In this document: positions 6,030 through 27,106 of the stretch, one piece after another
Layout of the letters: every line of letters starts with the position of its first letter
Numbering within the stretch: position 1 is the stretch's first letter
Origin: a virus
Reading direction: 5' to 3' (one strand)
DNA: 34,513 bases
IMG/VR virus record: IMGVR_UViG_3300005435_000038
Span: 1-34,513 of that record
The notes under the pieces: model-generated
The model's input: only the letters and a program-made list of their open reading frames with translations
Told to the model about the DNA's origin: nothing
Database searches by the model: none
Position numbers and translations under genes: made by a program

Positions 6030-6035
6030 CCGCCA

Positions 6036-6049
6036 ACGTCGTGAGACGT
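6036..6049 (+). promoter_or_regulatory. GTGA-tetraloop hairpin in scaffold-gene leader
   Basis: Perfect 5-bp stem ACGTC/GACGT closed by a GTGA (GNRA-class) loop, in the 68-base leader of the scaffold gene. The same design with changed but still complementary stems recurs at 7024-7037 and 9685-9698. Confidence 0.6.
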
Positions 6050-6078
6050 AGGCAAGCGGCGCGGTCCCTATGACGCGC

Positions 6079-6095
6079 CGTTCCTTTAGGGAACG
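6079..6095 (+). promoter_or_regulatory. Hairpin covering the scaffold-gene ribosome-binding site
   Basis: The stem CGTTCC/GGAACG with loop TTTAG includes the AGGGAA Shine-Dalgarno sequence that lies about 5 bases before ATG 6098. In the folded state the site would be masked, which could lower or regulate scaffold synthesis. Seen in sequence; the effect is inferred. Confidence 0.5.
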
Positions 6096-6097
6096 TC

Positions 6098-7024
6098 ATG
6101 CCCGAAGAACGCGCAAGCGAATCGGTAGAAATCATTGATGAAGTAGAGCCGGGCGACCTGGAGAAACTGACCGGGCTGCTCGACGAAGAAGGCAATCTTC
6201 CGGGCGTCGAAGAGGACGCGGAACCGCAGGCGCAAAAGACCGCAACTGAAACTCCAGCACCGACCGAGCCGGACTCGCCAGAGCAAACCGCCGAAGTCGA
6301 GTACGACGGCAAGAAATACGCCGTCCCCGCGGAGTTGAAGGACGCGTTTTTGCGCCAGTCCGACTACACGCGCAAGACTACCGAAGTCGCGCAAATGCGT
6401 GCCGCTGCAGAGCAGGAACGGCAGGCCGTCGCGAAACTCGCGCAGGAAGCGCAGCAGTACGTCGGCCACTATGCGGCGATTCAGCAGATCGACCAGCAAT
6501 TGCAACAGTTGCAAAAGGTCGACTGGAATCATCTGGCACAAGCGGACCCGCTGCAAAACCTGCAACTGCGTCAGACGTGGACCGAACTCACCAACGCTCG
6601 CCAAGGCATGCTCCAGCAACTGGATCAGGCCCGGCAGAAAGCGCAGGTCGAGCAAGTCCAGTCGGTGCAGCAGCAACTTGCCAAGGGCCATGAAGTGCTG
6701 GCGAAGGACATCCAGAATTGGGGACCGGAACTGCAAACGGCGCTGATGTCTACGGCTGCCAGCTACGGCTATCGCCCGGAAGAATTAGCCTCCGTCACCG
6801 ATCCCAGGGCCATCAAGCTGTTGCACAAGGCGTACTTGTACGACAAGTCGCAGCAGCAGAAGACGGTGGCCGAAAAGCAAGTCAGGCAAGCGCCGCCCAA
6901 GGTTGTGCGGCCCCAGGTCTCGCAAGAGCCGGGAATACCGCGTAACGATGCGTTGTCGCGTCTCCGCAGAAGCGGCAAGGACGACGACGCGGTAGCAGCG
7001 CTTAAAAACTTAGGACTCGACTAA
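6098..7024 (+). CDS. Capsid scaffolding protein
   Basis: 308 residues, placed directly before the major capsid gene as scaffolds are. The first 70 residues are acidic and disordered-looking. A short folded patch follows (VEYDGKKYAVPAELKDAFLR, then QSDYTRKTTEVAQMR), a motif common at this point in scaffold-like phage proteins. Residues 100-210 are a long Gln/Ala-rich coiled coil. The C-terminus carries a basic segment (DALSRLRRSGKDDDAV) that ends in an amphipathic helix, the usual place for capsid contact in scaffolds. No protease motif is visible, so capsid maturation by a phage protease is not supported here. The start is set by AGGGAA upstream of ATG 6098. Confidence 0.85.
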   Translation: MPEERASESVEIIDEVEPGDLEKLTGLLDEEGNLPGVEEDAEPQAQKTATETPAPTEPDSPEQTAEVEYDGKKYAVPAELKDAFLRQSDYTRKTTEVAQMRAAAEQERQAVAKLAQEAQQYVGHYAAIQQIDQQLQQLQKVDWNHLAQADPLQNLQLRQTWTELTNARQGMLQQLDQARQKAQVEQVQSVQQQLAKGHEVLAKDIQNWGPELQTALMSTAASYGYRPEELASVTDPRAIKLLHKAYLYDKSQQQKTVAEKQVRQAPPKVVRPQVSQEPGIPRNDALSRLRRSGKDDDAVAALKNLGLD

Positions 7025-7037
7025 CGCCGTGAGGCGT
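7024..7037 (+). promoter_or_regulatory. GTGA-tetraloop hairpin in capsid-gene leader
   Basis: Perfect stem ACGCC/GGCGT with a GTGA loop. It begins on the last base of the scaffold stop codon and ends 2-3 bases before the AAGGA ribosome-binding site of the capsid gene (ATG 7049). The position suits a stem that protects mRNA 5' ends or tunes translation. Confidence 0.6.
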
Positions 7038-7048
7038 CAAGGACCATC

Positions 7049-7990
7049 ATGACCATCGTTGCCAATACGTTCACGGCCTACAGTGCCATCGGCATCCGTG
7101 AGCAGCTGTCGGACATCATCTACAACATCGCGCCGACACAGACTCCGTTCCTCAACATGTGCAAGAAGGGGAAGGCTGCCAACATCCTGTTCGAGTGGCA
7201 GAAAGACACCCTCGACGCCGCGGCCAACAACGCACAGCTGGAAGGCGATGACATTTCGTCCTTCGCTGCGGTTACCCCGACGGTGCGCGTCAACAACCGC
7301 ACGCAGATTTCGTACAAGACGATCGTCCTGTCGGCGACGGAACAAGCCGTCACCAAGGCCGGCCGCAAGGATGAAATCGCGTACCAGATCATGCTGAAGG
7401 GCAAGGCCCTCAAGCGCGACATGGAAACGGCGCTGACGCAGAACACGACGGCGGTGACGGGTTCCACCACGGTTGCCCGGCAGACGCGCGGACTCGAAGG
7501 CTGGGTGGGGGGCACGAACAGCAATCTCGGCGCCTCGGGTGTTGCTGCGGCACCGTCCACCAACACGGCACCGACGGACGGGACGCAACGCACCTTCACC
7601 GAAGCGCTGCTCAAGGACTGCTGGCAGAAGACGTACACCTCCGGCGGTAACCCCGACACGCTGATGGTGGGTCCGACGCAGAAGCAGACGGTGTCGACCT
7701 TCACCGGCAATGCGACGCGTTTCGACAAGTCGGAGGACGCCAAGCTGTACGCGGCGATTTCCGTCTACGTCGGCGACTTCGGCGAAATCAAGGTGGTTCC
7801 GAACCGCTTCCAGCGCAACCGCACGGCGTTCCTGCTGGAATCGGACAAGTGGGCGTGCAACTACCTGCGCCAGTTCCAGGTCGAGCCGCTGGCGAAAACC
7901 GGCGACGCGGAAAAGCGTTTGCTGGTGGTCGAGTACGGCTTGCAGTCGATGGAAGAAGCCGCATCCGGCGCCATCCGCGACCTTCTGTAG
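7049..7990 (+). CDS. Major capsid protein (DUF5309/SU10 type)
   Basis: 313 residues, a normal length for the SU10-like HK97-fold capsid family. The N-terminal pattern IREQLSDIIYNIAPTQTPFL is characteristic of DUF5309, as are FEWQKDTLDAAANNAQLEGDD and NRTQISYKTIVLSATEQAV. The central Gly/Thr-rich loop (RGLEGWVGGTNSN) and the late patch KVVPNRFQRNRTAFLLE complete the family signature. It forms the icosahedral shell. It has AAGGA upstream and is followed by a strong terminator, as expected for the most abundant protein. Confidence 0.93.
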   Translation: MTIVANTFTAYSAIGIREQLSDIIYNIAPTQTPFLNMCKKGKAANILFEWQKDTLDAAANNAQLEGDDISSFAAVTPTVRVNNRTQISYKTIVLSATEQAVTKAGRKDEIAYQIMLKGKALKRDMETALTQNTTAVTGSTTVARQTRGLEGWVGGTNSNLGASGVAAAPSTNTAPTDGTQRTFTEALLKDCWQKTYTSGGNPDTLMVGPTQKQTVSTFTGNATRFDKSEDAKLYAAISVYVGDFGEIKVVPNRFQRNRTAFLLESDKWACNYLRQFQVEPLAKTGDAEKRLLVVEYGLQSMEEAASGAIRDLL

Positions 7991-8010
7991 CCTTTTCGTA
8001 ACTTCACTCC

Positions 8011-8036
8011 AAGGGCGTCTTCGGGCGCCCTTTTTC
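8011..8036 (+). terminator. UUCG-loop terminator after capsid gene
   Basis: A 9-bp stem AAGGGCGTC/GGCGCCCTT with one U-G pair and an exceptionally stable TTCG loop is followed by TTTTT. It lies 20 bases after the capsid stop and 15 bases before the next ATG. It probably sets a step-down in downstream expression or stabilises the 3' end of capsid mRNA. Confidence 0.85.
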
Positions 8037-8050
8037 TTGCAGGGGCAGAC

Positions 8051-8467
8051 ATGGGTTACGAACTGAAACAGACGGGCTCCGGTGTGCAGATATGGGACGA
8101 CGTATCCGGCGCGCAGGGCGGTCTCGTCATGGCGCTCGCGGGCAAGGTCACGGTCGCGCCGACGAATACCGTCGTGGTCGGAACGCTGCCGGCGAACGCG
8201 CAGATCCTCAATATCTACATCACGGTCCCGGTGGTTTCCAATGCCGGTACCACGGCGACGGTGTCGCTCGGTCTTAGCGGCGGTTCTGGAACGGCCTTTA
8301 CCGCGGCGCAGGACGTGAAATCGGCGGTGGGCAACTTCGCGCCGACCGCAACCGCAGCGTGGGCGATCAGCACCGCGAAGCAGGACATCACCGTGACCTA
8401 CACGGAAACGGGCACCGCATCGACGGCGGGAACGGTCTATTACGCCATCAAGTACGTCGTGAACTGA
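8051..8467 (+). CDS. Head decoration-like protein
   Basis: 138 residues, Ala/Thr/Val/Gly-rich and strongly beta-predicted (VVVGTLPANAQILNIYITVP; TATVSLGLSGGSG; TAWAISTAKQDITVTY-like end). Low in charge, no Cys, no membrane segment. The fold pattern and place right after the capsid terminator suggest a capsid decoration or head-fibre protein. The alternation of small hydrophobic residues resembles immunoglobulin-like or jelly-roll domains. GGGG lies upstream of ATG 8051. The function is inferred. Confidence 0.7.
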   Translation: MGYELKQTGSGVQIWDDVSGAQGGLVMALAGKVTVAPTNTVVVGTLPANAQILNIYITVPVVSNAGTTATVSLGLSGGSGTAFTAAQDVKSAVGNFAPTATAAWAISTAKQDITVTYTETGTASTAGTVYYAIKYVVN

Positions 8468-8468
8468 C

Positions 8469-8777
8469 ATGAGCGGAAAAATCAACGCGCTGCAAGTCAG
8501 TGCAACGGGCGTTTCGATCACCACCAGCGGGACGAGCGCCAACGGCAACGTGCCCAATGATTCCTCGGGCACGAAACCGCGTTATGTCCGCGTCGCGGCA
8601 ACGGCGGCGGCGTATGTGCGCATCGGTTCCGGCGCACAGACCGCAGTGACGACCGACATGCTGGTGCAGCCCGGTGACGCGGTGATCCTGATGTGTCCTG
8701 CGGGCACTCCGAACGTCGGGGCAATTCAGGTCAGCGTTGCCGGCATCGTCAACGTCACGCCGATCGAGAGCTTCTGA
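8469..8777 (+). CDS. Small beta-rich virion protein, decoration-like
   Basis: 102 residues, Ser/Thr/Ala/Gly/Val-rich. It contains a recognisable phage beta-sandwich pattern (KPRYVRVAATAAAYVRIGS, then MLVQPGDAVILMCPAG), seen in small proteins encoded next to capsid genes and sometimes repeated in tail-tip proteins. It starts 1 base after the previous stop and ends in TGATG with the next gene. A decoration or minor head role is likely but not demonstrated. Confidence 0.7.
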   Translation: MSGKINALQVSATGVSITTSGTSANGNVPNDSSGTKPRYVRVAATAAAYVRIGSGAQTAVTTDMLVQPGDAVILMCPAGTPNVGAIQVSVAGIVNVTPIESF

Positions 8778-9073
8778 TGGCGATCATCCCGCAGAACGAC
8801 GGCGGGGTGGTCATTTCCGAGTCGCAGGATGTCGAGCCGATTCTGGAATATGCCAAGGAACGCGCAAGGTCGGGGTCGGGCGTCAGTCCGAGCGGGGAAA
8901 TGCGCGAGCTGGCTCATTTTCCCGACGTGATCGTGCTTGCCTACTGCAAGAGCCGGGGAATCGACTTCGGACAGTTCATGCACGACCCGCAGCACGTCAA
9001 GAACCTGCTTGCGGACCCGGCATTGCGTGACTTTCAGGTGTGGGCCAACAACCCGCATAAAACGTGGCGCTAG
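8777..9073 (+). CDS. Small head-associated protein, unknown
   Basis: 98 residues from ATG 8777, sharing one base with the previous stop (TGATG). The N-terminus holds a beta-like segment (IIPQNDGGVVISESQDVEPI), then a helical middle (ILEYAKERARS). The C-terminus has a conserved-looking block (FMHDPQHVKNLLADPALRDFQVW) that I associate with proteins preceding the head-tail adaptor in podovirus-like genomes. No catalytic motif. The next gene begins inside its last codons. Confidence 0.7.
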   Translation: MAIIPQNDGGVVISESQDVEPILEYAKERARSGSGVSPSGEMRELAHFPDVIVLAYCKSRGIDFGQFMHDPQHVKNLLADPALRDFQVWANNPHKTWR

Positions 9074-9678
9074 ACACCTACACCAACCTGCAAACCGCGT
9101 TGCAGGCGTGGCTCGCGCGGGTCGATGTGGCAGCCGATGTCGTCGACATGATCACCATGTTCGAGGCGTGGGTGAATCGCAACATCCGCGTGCCGCAGAT
9201 GGAGCAGGACAGCATCGCAACTGCTTCTGAATACCTGCCATTCCCGGTGGATTTCCTCGAATTGCGCGCGATCCAGTGGCAGGGCAACGCTGCTAATCCA
9301 CGTCTGCAACTGGAATACCTGTCGCCCGTGATGGCCGACATTGAAGACCCGTTCGGGCAAGCGGATACCCCACGTTTTTACACCATCGTCAGCAATCAGA
9401 TTCGTTTGGTGCCGAAGCCCGACGATCTGACCGTCAACATCCGCATCGATTACTGGAAAAAGCTGCCCGCGTTGACGCTTACCAATCAAACGAATTGGCT
9501 GCTGTCGCTGTACCCGGACGCCTACCTGTACGGGCCACTTGTCCACGGCAACATCCGCGTGCAAGACGTGAGCATGGCCGCAGCCGTGCAGCAGGGTTGG
9601 GCCGGAATCATGGCCGAACTGCAACGCGCCGGCAAGGATGCCAACGTCGGCAGTCTATTGCGCATTCGCACCGCGTAG
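9064..9678 (+). CDS. Head-tail adaptor (SU10 adaptor/gp4-like)
   Basis: 204 residues from GTG 9064, overlapping the previous gene by 10 bases. The order of features matches the phage adaptor family that docks below the portal: a helical N-terminus (YTNLQTALQAWLARVDV), FEAWVNRNIRVPQME, LPFPVDFLELRAIQ, then beta strands with QIRLVPKPDDLTVNIRIDYW, and a C-terminal helix after LLSLYPDAYLYGPL. It bridges portal and nozzle in short-tailed phages, which fits the portal and nozzle genes in this window. Confidence 0.85.
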   Translation: MALDTYTNLQTALQAWLARVDVAADVVDMITMFEAWVNRNIRVPQMEQDSIATASEYLPFPVDFLELRAIQWQGNAANPRLQLEYLSPVMADIEDPFGQADTPRFYTIVSNQIRLVPKPDDLTVNIRIDYWKKLPALTLTNQTNWLLSLYPDAYLYGPLVHGNIRVQDVSMAAAVQQGWAGIMAELQRAGKDANVGSLLRIRTA

Positions 9679-9684
9679 TTCCCA

Positions 9685-9698
9685 GCGCCGTGAGGCGT
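9685..9698 (+). promoter_or_regulatory. GTGA-tetraloop hairpin in structural-gene leader
   Basis: Stem GCGCC/GGCGT (outermost pair G-U) with a GTGA loop, 6 bases after the adaptor stop and 26 bases before ATG 9725. It is the third copy of the leader hairpin seen before the scaffold and capsid genes. Confidence 0.55.
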
Positions 9699-9724
9699 CG
9701 GATTTCCCTTTGACGGAGCTATAA

Positions 9725-10153
9725 ATGGCTGCATTCAACAAGTTCAATCAGTTCGTCGCCGACCTTGGCAACAAGGTTCACAACCTGTCAAGCGACGCTT
9801 GCAAGGTGATGCTGACCAACACGGCGCCCGCGGCAACGAATGCGATCCTGGCCGACATCACGGAAATCGCCGCCGGCAACGGGTATGCCGCGGGCGGCAA
9901 CGCGGCGGCGGTTACTTCATGGTCGCAAAGCGGGGGTGTGGCCAAGTTCGTGCAGTCGAGTCCGGCGACGTGGACGGCTGCAGGCGGTTCGATCGGTCCC
10001 CTTCGCTATGCGGTGCTTTACAACAGCACGCCGACTTCCCCGCTCAAGCCGCTTATCGGGTATTGGGATTACGGCTCCAGCATTACGCTCGCTGCCGGCG
10101 AAACGTTCACGGTGACGCTTGACGCGACCAACGGCACGTTCACGATTACTTAA
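9725..10153 (+). CDS. Virion structural protein (beta-sandwich type)
   Basis: 142 residues. The pattern KFNQFVADLGNKVHNLSSDA, KVMLTNTAPAATN, ITEIAAGNGYAAGG and a C-terminal LAAGETFTVTLDATNG belongs to a small structural-protein family that is very common among tailed-phage tail or head-fibre genes. It is all-beta and low in charge. It follows a 46-base leader that contains the third GTGA hairpin, suggesting regulated or high expression. A tail-associated or decoration function is plausible; the family's exact position in the virion is not known to me. Confidence 0.75.
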   Translation: MAAFNKFNQFVADLGNKVHNLSSDACKVMLTNTAPAATNAILADITEIAAGNGYAAGGNAAAVTSWSQSGGVAKFVQSSPATWTAAGGSIGPLRYAVLYNSTPTSPLKPLIGYWDYGSSITLAAGETFTVTLDATNGTFTIT

Positions 10154-27016: not shown

Positions 27017-27042
27017 GCCATCAGCGCCCCATCCAAAGCCCA

Positions 27043-27058
27043 TGTTTCACGGGGAACG
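27043..27058 (+). other. parS-like near-palindrome
   Basis: TGTTTCACGGGGAACG differs from the ParB-binding consensus form TGTTTCACGTGGAACA at two of sixteen positions. It lies between the late operon and the att sequence. One copy and no parA/parB gene in view, so this is only a lookalike at present. Confidence 0.3.
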
Positions 27059-27062
27059 CAAC

Positions 27063-27106
27063 GGCGATTATGAGTCGCCTGCTCTAACCGACTGAGCTAC
27101 GGGCCC
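27063..27106 (-). other. attP: Attachment site: 5' half of tRNA-Met(CAT)
   Basis: On the minus strand the segment reads as an exact tRNA 5' half: acceptor GGGCCCG, TA, D-arm GCTC/GAGC with loop AGTCGGTTA, and anticodon arm GGCGA-CTCATAA-TCGCC with anticodon CAT. After the anticodon arm there is no variable loop, T-arm or 3' acceptor strand. The adjacent leftward tyrosine integrase makes this the likely core shared with a host tRNA-Met (or tRNA-Ile2 with the same anticodon). Phage genes flank it on both sides, so this is attP of a circular or assembled phage map rather than a chromosome junction. Confidence 0.7.

Follow-up and report, generated by a model that had tools for sequence, protein, structure and literature searches.

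Three hairpins in the late module

The IMG/VR virus record IMGVR_UViG_3300005435_000038 (positions 1 to 34,513, a stretch called the window throughout) carries three short hairpins with GTGA loops in the leaders of late virion genes. Its genes were assigned by PHROGs to terminase, portal, scaffold, major capsid, a phrog_2941 virion protein and a phrog_644 protein. The late module runs from 2106 to 22706 (about 20,600 bases) and has five gaps of at least 12 bases, totalling 227 bases; three of these five, before the scaffold, major capsid and phrog_644 genes, hold all three hairpins. They are called GHGA hairpins here, after the G-[ACU]-G-A loop of the family described below. The features, with the Shine–Dalgarno sequence abbreviated to SD, are as follows.

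6032–6053, forward: GHGA hairpin of the scaffold leader; lower stem GCC/GGC (6032–6034/6051–6053), A·A mismatch, upper stem ACGTC/GACGT, loop GTGA at 6041–6044
6058–6079, forward: second hairpin of the scaffold leader, GGCGCG/CGCGCC; leader folding z-score −3.3
6080–6094, forward: third hairpin of the scaffold leader, GTTCC-TTTAG-GGAAC, enclosing the scaffold SD AGGGAA (6088–6093)
6098–7024, forward: scaffold gene (phrog_3927; PHROG match E 6.3e-47)
7024–7037, forward: GHGA hairpin of the major capsid leader, ACGCC-GTGA-GGCGT; core 7025–7036, without lower stem
7049–7990, forward: major capsid gene (phrog_1328, DUF5309 type; PHROG match E 9.7e-94)
9680–9702, forward: GHGA hairpin of the phrog_644 leader; lower stem UCC/GGA (9680–9682/9700–9702), internal loop C-A over C, G·U wobble, upper stem CGCC/GGCG, loop GTGA at 9690–9693
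9715–9718, forward: likely SD GGAG of the phrog_644 gene, from the sequence
9725–10153, forward: phrog_644 family gene with no assigned function (PHROG match E 2.6e-19)

An initial annotation of this DNA had described three covarying hairpins with 5-bp stems in leaders of 24–68 bases and had seen no other copy. Their sequences and coordinates were right, and the leaders measured 68 (scaffold), 24 (capsid) and 46 bases (phrog_644). The 5-bp stem was correct for two copies, but the third (GCGCC-GTGA-GGCGT, 9685–9698) has an outer G-T and so consists of four Watson–Crick pairs plus a wobble. As a unit it did not stand: relatives conserve a 4-bp core (CGNN/NNCG) but not the fifth pair, and the scaffold and phrog_644 copies continue into a lower stem. 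RNAfold supported the hairpin in these two leaders, with a pairing probability of about 1.0 for the scaffold copy (core ACGTC-GTGA-GACGT, 6036–6049) and of about 0.3–0.6 for the lower-stem pairs of the phrog_644 copy. The capsid-leader hairpin begins on the final base of the scaffold stop codon TAA (7022–7024) and is followed by the capsid SD AAGGA (7039–7043). The stems are preceded by CCAA, CTAA and CCAG, so that AA or AG adjoins all three. An intrinsic terminator was considered and rejected, as no T run follows any of the three; an intrinsic-terminator-like hairpin with a TTCG loop and a T run does lie at 8013–8035, directly past the capsid gene. At the place of the second scaffold-leader hairpin, relatives (e.g. 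L009 and L015) have a different hairpin by inspection.

A search of the 34.5-kb window for CGNN-G[ACT]GA-NNCG with complementary stems found three copies on the forward strand and none on the reverse, bearing out that there is no other copy. Dinucleotide shuffles of the window (n = 400) contained 0.5 such hairpins on average and three or more in 5/400; an equivalent pattern test on shuffles gave 7/100. The count in the window alone is thus only mildly unusual, which is all that speaks for chance hairpins. Chance is ruled out not by the count but by placement in the gaps and conservation in relatives, to which strand and covariation can be added, and its probability is practically nil.

Conservation in relatives and prophages

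Capsid homologues were taken from IMG/VR irrespective of any hairpin. Many of the inspected leaders of these relatives had a hairpin with a GAGA, GTGA or GCGA loop and varied stems directly 5′ of the capsid SD. Relatives with 53–58% identical capsid proteins carried the same hairpin before the portal, scaffold, capsid and post-capsid genes, with covarying stems. A covariance model, R1, built from 41 sites (three from the window), gave over 100 matches in 976 kb of relatives, and all those below E 0.1 were on the coding strand. A BLASTN search with one leader against a phage collection returned chance matches only.

All three Undibacterium prophages found carried the hairpin, in three copies each, and none of seven Pseudomonas, Dyella and Bradyrhizobium prophages did. 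Inspection of GNRA hairpins yielded no member in the named phages Rhodoferax P26218, PBR31, EBPR podovirus 1, PAE2, Venkman, HTVC106P and five Manatee Spring phages.

R1 also matched a dispersed chromosomal repeat, GCAACGC[ACT]GCGATGCGCCC, whose copies mostly lack a complementary stem and which was judged unrelated. It occurs in 15–17 copies in G046 and G1065, and also in G987 and G1036 (L216, L218, L221, L223, L372–L374, L378); one copy sits in the leader of an atpA-like gene.

Relaxed-motif scans of IMG/VR

Because regular expressions had served to choose the sites of R1 and of the first lists, IMG/VR was scanned with one or another element unconstrained (at most 120 stretches for each scan; the counts are samples, among the matches listed). 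Freeing the inner stem gave 122 distinct matches, of which 90 were complementary against 7.6 expected, with at least nine distinct stem-pair combinations. A start codon lay 4–15 nucleotides (nt) past GGAG in 81 of 88 such sites, 63 of them at 5–6 nt. In 399 Burkholderiales genomes the same pattern gave 10 matches with two complementary, which is about chance.

With the loop free, 45 of 101 distinct matches were complementary. The loop was GNGA in 38 of these (GAGA 13, GCGA 13, GTGA 11, GGGA 1) and mixed, at the chance rate, in the other seven; it was GNGA in only 2/56 non-complementary matches (Fisher p 3e-18). No GNAA or UUCG loop was found among the 45 complementary matches beyond the chance few.

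This bears on a passive role, in which the late transcript would be cut between genes and the hairpin at each new 5′ end would stabilise or insulate the mRNA by blocking 5′-dependent decay. The hairpins do lie directly past an upstream stop codon or past a GC-rich hairpin or terminator, a strong hairpin occurs within about 45 nt upstream at 34/110 sites vs 27/330 control stretches, and T4 gene 32, for which a 5′ CUUCGG hairpin is reported to act in this way, offers a precedent (PMC8948821). Stability needs no GHGA, however, and GAAA, GCAA and UUCG loops are missing as stated; nor does a stabiliser explain the conserved internal loop described below or the tight spacing to the start codon. We regard it as rather unlikely, if the strongest of the competing explanations. 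The initial annotation had suggested processing sites, ribosome-protection stems or a common binding site. A plain protection or stability stem leaves the strict G-[ACU]-G-A loop and the UAA/CU internal loop unexplained, and a common binding site would suit the hairpins better; the hairpins could conceivably be processing sites.

With the flanks free, 52 of 102 matches were complementary. Among these, AA preceded the stem in 43/52 and C followed it in 50/52, G was never the second loop base (0/52), position −5 was C in 43/52 and position −4 a pyrimidine in 51/52; positions −5 and −4 pair with two G of the SD. Non-complementary matches had none of these preferences. The stem-, loop- and flank-free scans thus recovered the consensus Y-C-Y-U-A-A-[CGNN]-GHGA-[NNCG]-C-U-GGAG-N5-6-AUG. 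In a further scan with the CG left free, 4/85 new loci were complementary, none with CG; this count is incomplete and was not used as evidence.

Tandem GHGA hairpins about 40 nt apart were seen before one gene in L294 (449–510, reverse strand), L215 (1470–1522) and L370; the upstream copy in L294 retains CTGGAG though no start codon adjoins it.

The exact 14-mer defined the family poorly, its matches being a mixture of hammerheads, leaders and coding sequence. As the capsid-leader 14-mer equals stem III of many phage hammerheads, the hairpins might be parts or remnants of such ribozymes. Among 115 distinct IMG/VR sites with ACGCCGTGAGGCGT (the exact 14-mer), 43 were hammerhead-like (L084, L087, L093, L096, L111, L140, L148, L160, L164 and others), several of them directly before a start codon, and Rfam Hammerhead_II covers L087 7719–7780. 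No Rfam hammerhead match was found in the window, however, and the GAA before the stem and a nearby CUGANGA strand are missing at its hairpins. Compact leaders are too short for a hammerhead, and the A-U pair at the foot of stem III is usually A·C in the GHGA family. A hammerhead origin is hardly credible.

Structure and covariation

The extended hairpin is built of a lower stem that often takes in the SD and an upper stem of 4 bp, CGNN/NNCG, with an internal loop between the two (typically UAA over CU) and the G-[ACU]-G-A loop on top. Alignment A3 comprised 128 non-redundant sites with the window left out; pairing of the upper stem was a condition of selection and hence stands at 100%. No such condition applied to the lower stem, which was 81% paired and had changes on both sides at each of its three pairs. 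Cells changed on both sides numbered 134 vs 29 in shuffled alignments, and in slid controls pairing dropped to 32–57%. Folding of leaders formed the upper stem in most of them, the lower stem being weak without a partner. Position 9–22 had been taken for a conserved wobble (A·C/G·U, from A1), but weaker members have C·U, U·C, U-A or C-G there, and it was reassigned to the internal loop.

A second model, R2, was built from A3 and searched against the window with filters off (its E-values are rough). The three sites ranked first (phrog_644 2.7e-5, capsid 0.01, scaffold 0.025), the next match being at 0.23. Sequence comparison thus shows the three sites to be members of a conserved family of predicted RNA hairpins that tailed phages carry in the 5′ leaders of late virion genes, situated directly 5′ of the SD, with which they would often pair. 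An RNA-level structure with covarying stems in head-gene leaders, as first proposed, is strongly supported by the relatives and by the free-stem, free-loop and free-flank scans; the stems are conserved, and equal hairpins are not plentiful at random coding positions.

The same data weigh on a site acting in the DNA, such as a promoter, an operator or a hairpin-type promoter. Such a site would agree with short inverted repeats placed where transcription-unit-like leaders begin. It would not account for occurrence on one strand only, the asymmetric GHGA loop on the coding strand, the compensatory changes at every variable pair or the tight spacing to SD and start codon. Nor was there any common sequence 5′ of the three window copies or an RNA polymerase gene among the window open reading frames scanned. 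A DNA-level site is very unlikely.

Downstream genes, copy number and host range

The proteins encoded 3′ of 78 sites included major head proteins of four PHROG families (1328, 16 times; 283, five; 267, two; 371, one), two portal families, a DNA ejection protein, a major tail protein and tail-fibre families. Leaders with the exact window 14-mer preceded HK97-type, P22-type and N4-gp56-like capsid proteins and tail tube proteins (types assigned by eye); the family membership of these leaders is less certain, and R2 scores most of them weakly.

Across whole records, most hairpin phages had 2–6 copies, all on one strand, and 13 of 13 capsid relatives chosen for having no capsid-leader hairpin were without any copy across the record. 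Matches in prophages came mainly from the family of Undibacterium and seldom from its order or phylum: genomes with any match numbered 8/295 for the family (not all in prophages), 6/250 for the order and 2/398 for the phylum. The predicted element is phage-specific, its frequency in Burkholderiales chromosomes outside prophages being at chance level.

No gene family was common to 20 hairpin records and missing from 11 hairpin-free ones, the best reaching 6/20 vs 0/11, in a test weakened by incomplete contigs and remote homology. This argues against an operator for a phage-encoded translational repressor (capsid, scaffold or a small RNA-binding protein), as for MS2 coat or T4 gp43, and so does the position of the element before unrelated capsid and tail families. 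A hairpin with an internal loop and a fixed tetraloop at the SD, in several copies per phage, is what such an operator would look like, and the tandem copies and all-or-none presence would agree with it. All in all, a phage repressor seems improbable.

A possible role in translation initiation

The reading that we prefer, and to which we give about an even chance, is that a host-supplied factor reads the hairpin and that the hairpin at the SD controls the start of translation for each virion gene. Loop and internal loop would be read by a host-supplied RNA-binding protein or a feature of the 30S ribosomal subunit. Engagement or release of the hairpin beside the SD would then set initiation gene by gene on a common late transcript, and portal, scaffold, capsid and other late products would be made at controlled levels. 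The strict GHGA loop and the internal loop imply recognition, because a stem needed only for its stability could equally be capped by GAAA or UUCG. Given that the known hosts are closely related and that the element is not accompanied by any particular phage gene, the likeliest reader would be a host protein or the ribosome; initiation would be the likeliest step because the hairpin lies against the SD or takes it in, at a fixed distance from the start codon.

Several observations weigh against this reading. The nearest relative, L004, with 80% capsid identity, is without the element altogether, and in the Burkholderiales prophage G053 the capsid leader is short and lacks it. In some scaffold leaders, including that of the window, the hairpin is 40–56 nt from the start codon, so that contact with the SD is not universal. 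The capsid copy of the window has no lower stem, and RNAfold favours a different fold for its leader.

More tentatively, the hairpin could be a shared late-gene signal that unrelated phages of one host group (largely Burkholderiales) gained independently or by exchange; it would be read by a host RNA-binding protein, or dock directly on the host 30S subunit via its GHGA loop, and so couple the opening of the SD to a host factor.

Other features of the window

An integrase and an Erf-like annealing protein in the window suggest a temperate phage. A weak tRNA match (Rfam 29.7 bits; none by ARAGORN) adjoins the integrase gene at 27035–27106 on the reverse strand and is possibly an attachment-site remnant.

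Relation to known systems

Rfam 15 gave no gathering-score or credible weaker match at the hairpins of the window and of member-rich relatives. Elsewhere, a sub-threshold ribosomal S15 leader match (25 bits, E 0.04) was seen before a virion structural gene of phage PaP3 (L626 16322–16436). A limited search of open-access papers, with subscription papers and preprints outside its scope, found no description of the family, which is apparently undescribed. Its kind is already known from phage intercistronic tetraloop hairpins and SD-proximal operators, from which its loop, its internal loop, its spacing and the range of genes that it precedes set it apart.

The MS2 coat operator is a translational operator hairpin at the SD. 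The gene 43 operator of T4 and RB69 is likewise a translational operator at the SD (PMC3014915). The GHGA hairpin resembles them as a fixed-loop hairpin adjoining the SD, and in the known operators the protein reads loop bases. Those operators serve one gene, in one phage group, through a phage protein, whereas the GHGA hairpin stands before many virion genes that are unrelated to one another, and its presence is not tracked by any phage protein.

The CUUCGG hairpins of T4 and other phages are described (Tuerk et al. 1988, as reported in PMC8948821) as short, stable, many per genome and mostly intergenic, and a 5′ CUUCGG hairpin as stabilising T4 gene 32 mRNA. They share with the present family that both are short stable tetraloop hairpins between genes in phage transcripts; the GHGA hairpins differ in their loop, in a conserved internal loop and lower stem, and in sitting close against the SD of late virion genes.

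Where stem III of a phage hammerhead (RF02276 and others; PMC3088659) has a GTGA loop, it can match the hairpin letter for letter and is likewise intergenic, but the window hairpins lack the catalytic core. The loop conforms to G-N-R-A and its closing pair is mostly C-G, as in GNRA tetraloops; unlike GNRA loops in general, the third base is always G, the second is A, C or U in nearly all members, and GNAA is unused.

Beyond a few model phages, it is poorly understood how the ratios of portal, scaffold, capsid and tail proteins are obtained from one late transcript. The GHGA hairpin is a recognisable RNA module before unrelated virion genes and offers a testable handle on late-protein dosage. 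It could also be used as an annotation aid marking the starts of late genes, and may be a clue to the host group of uncultured phages.

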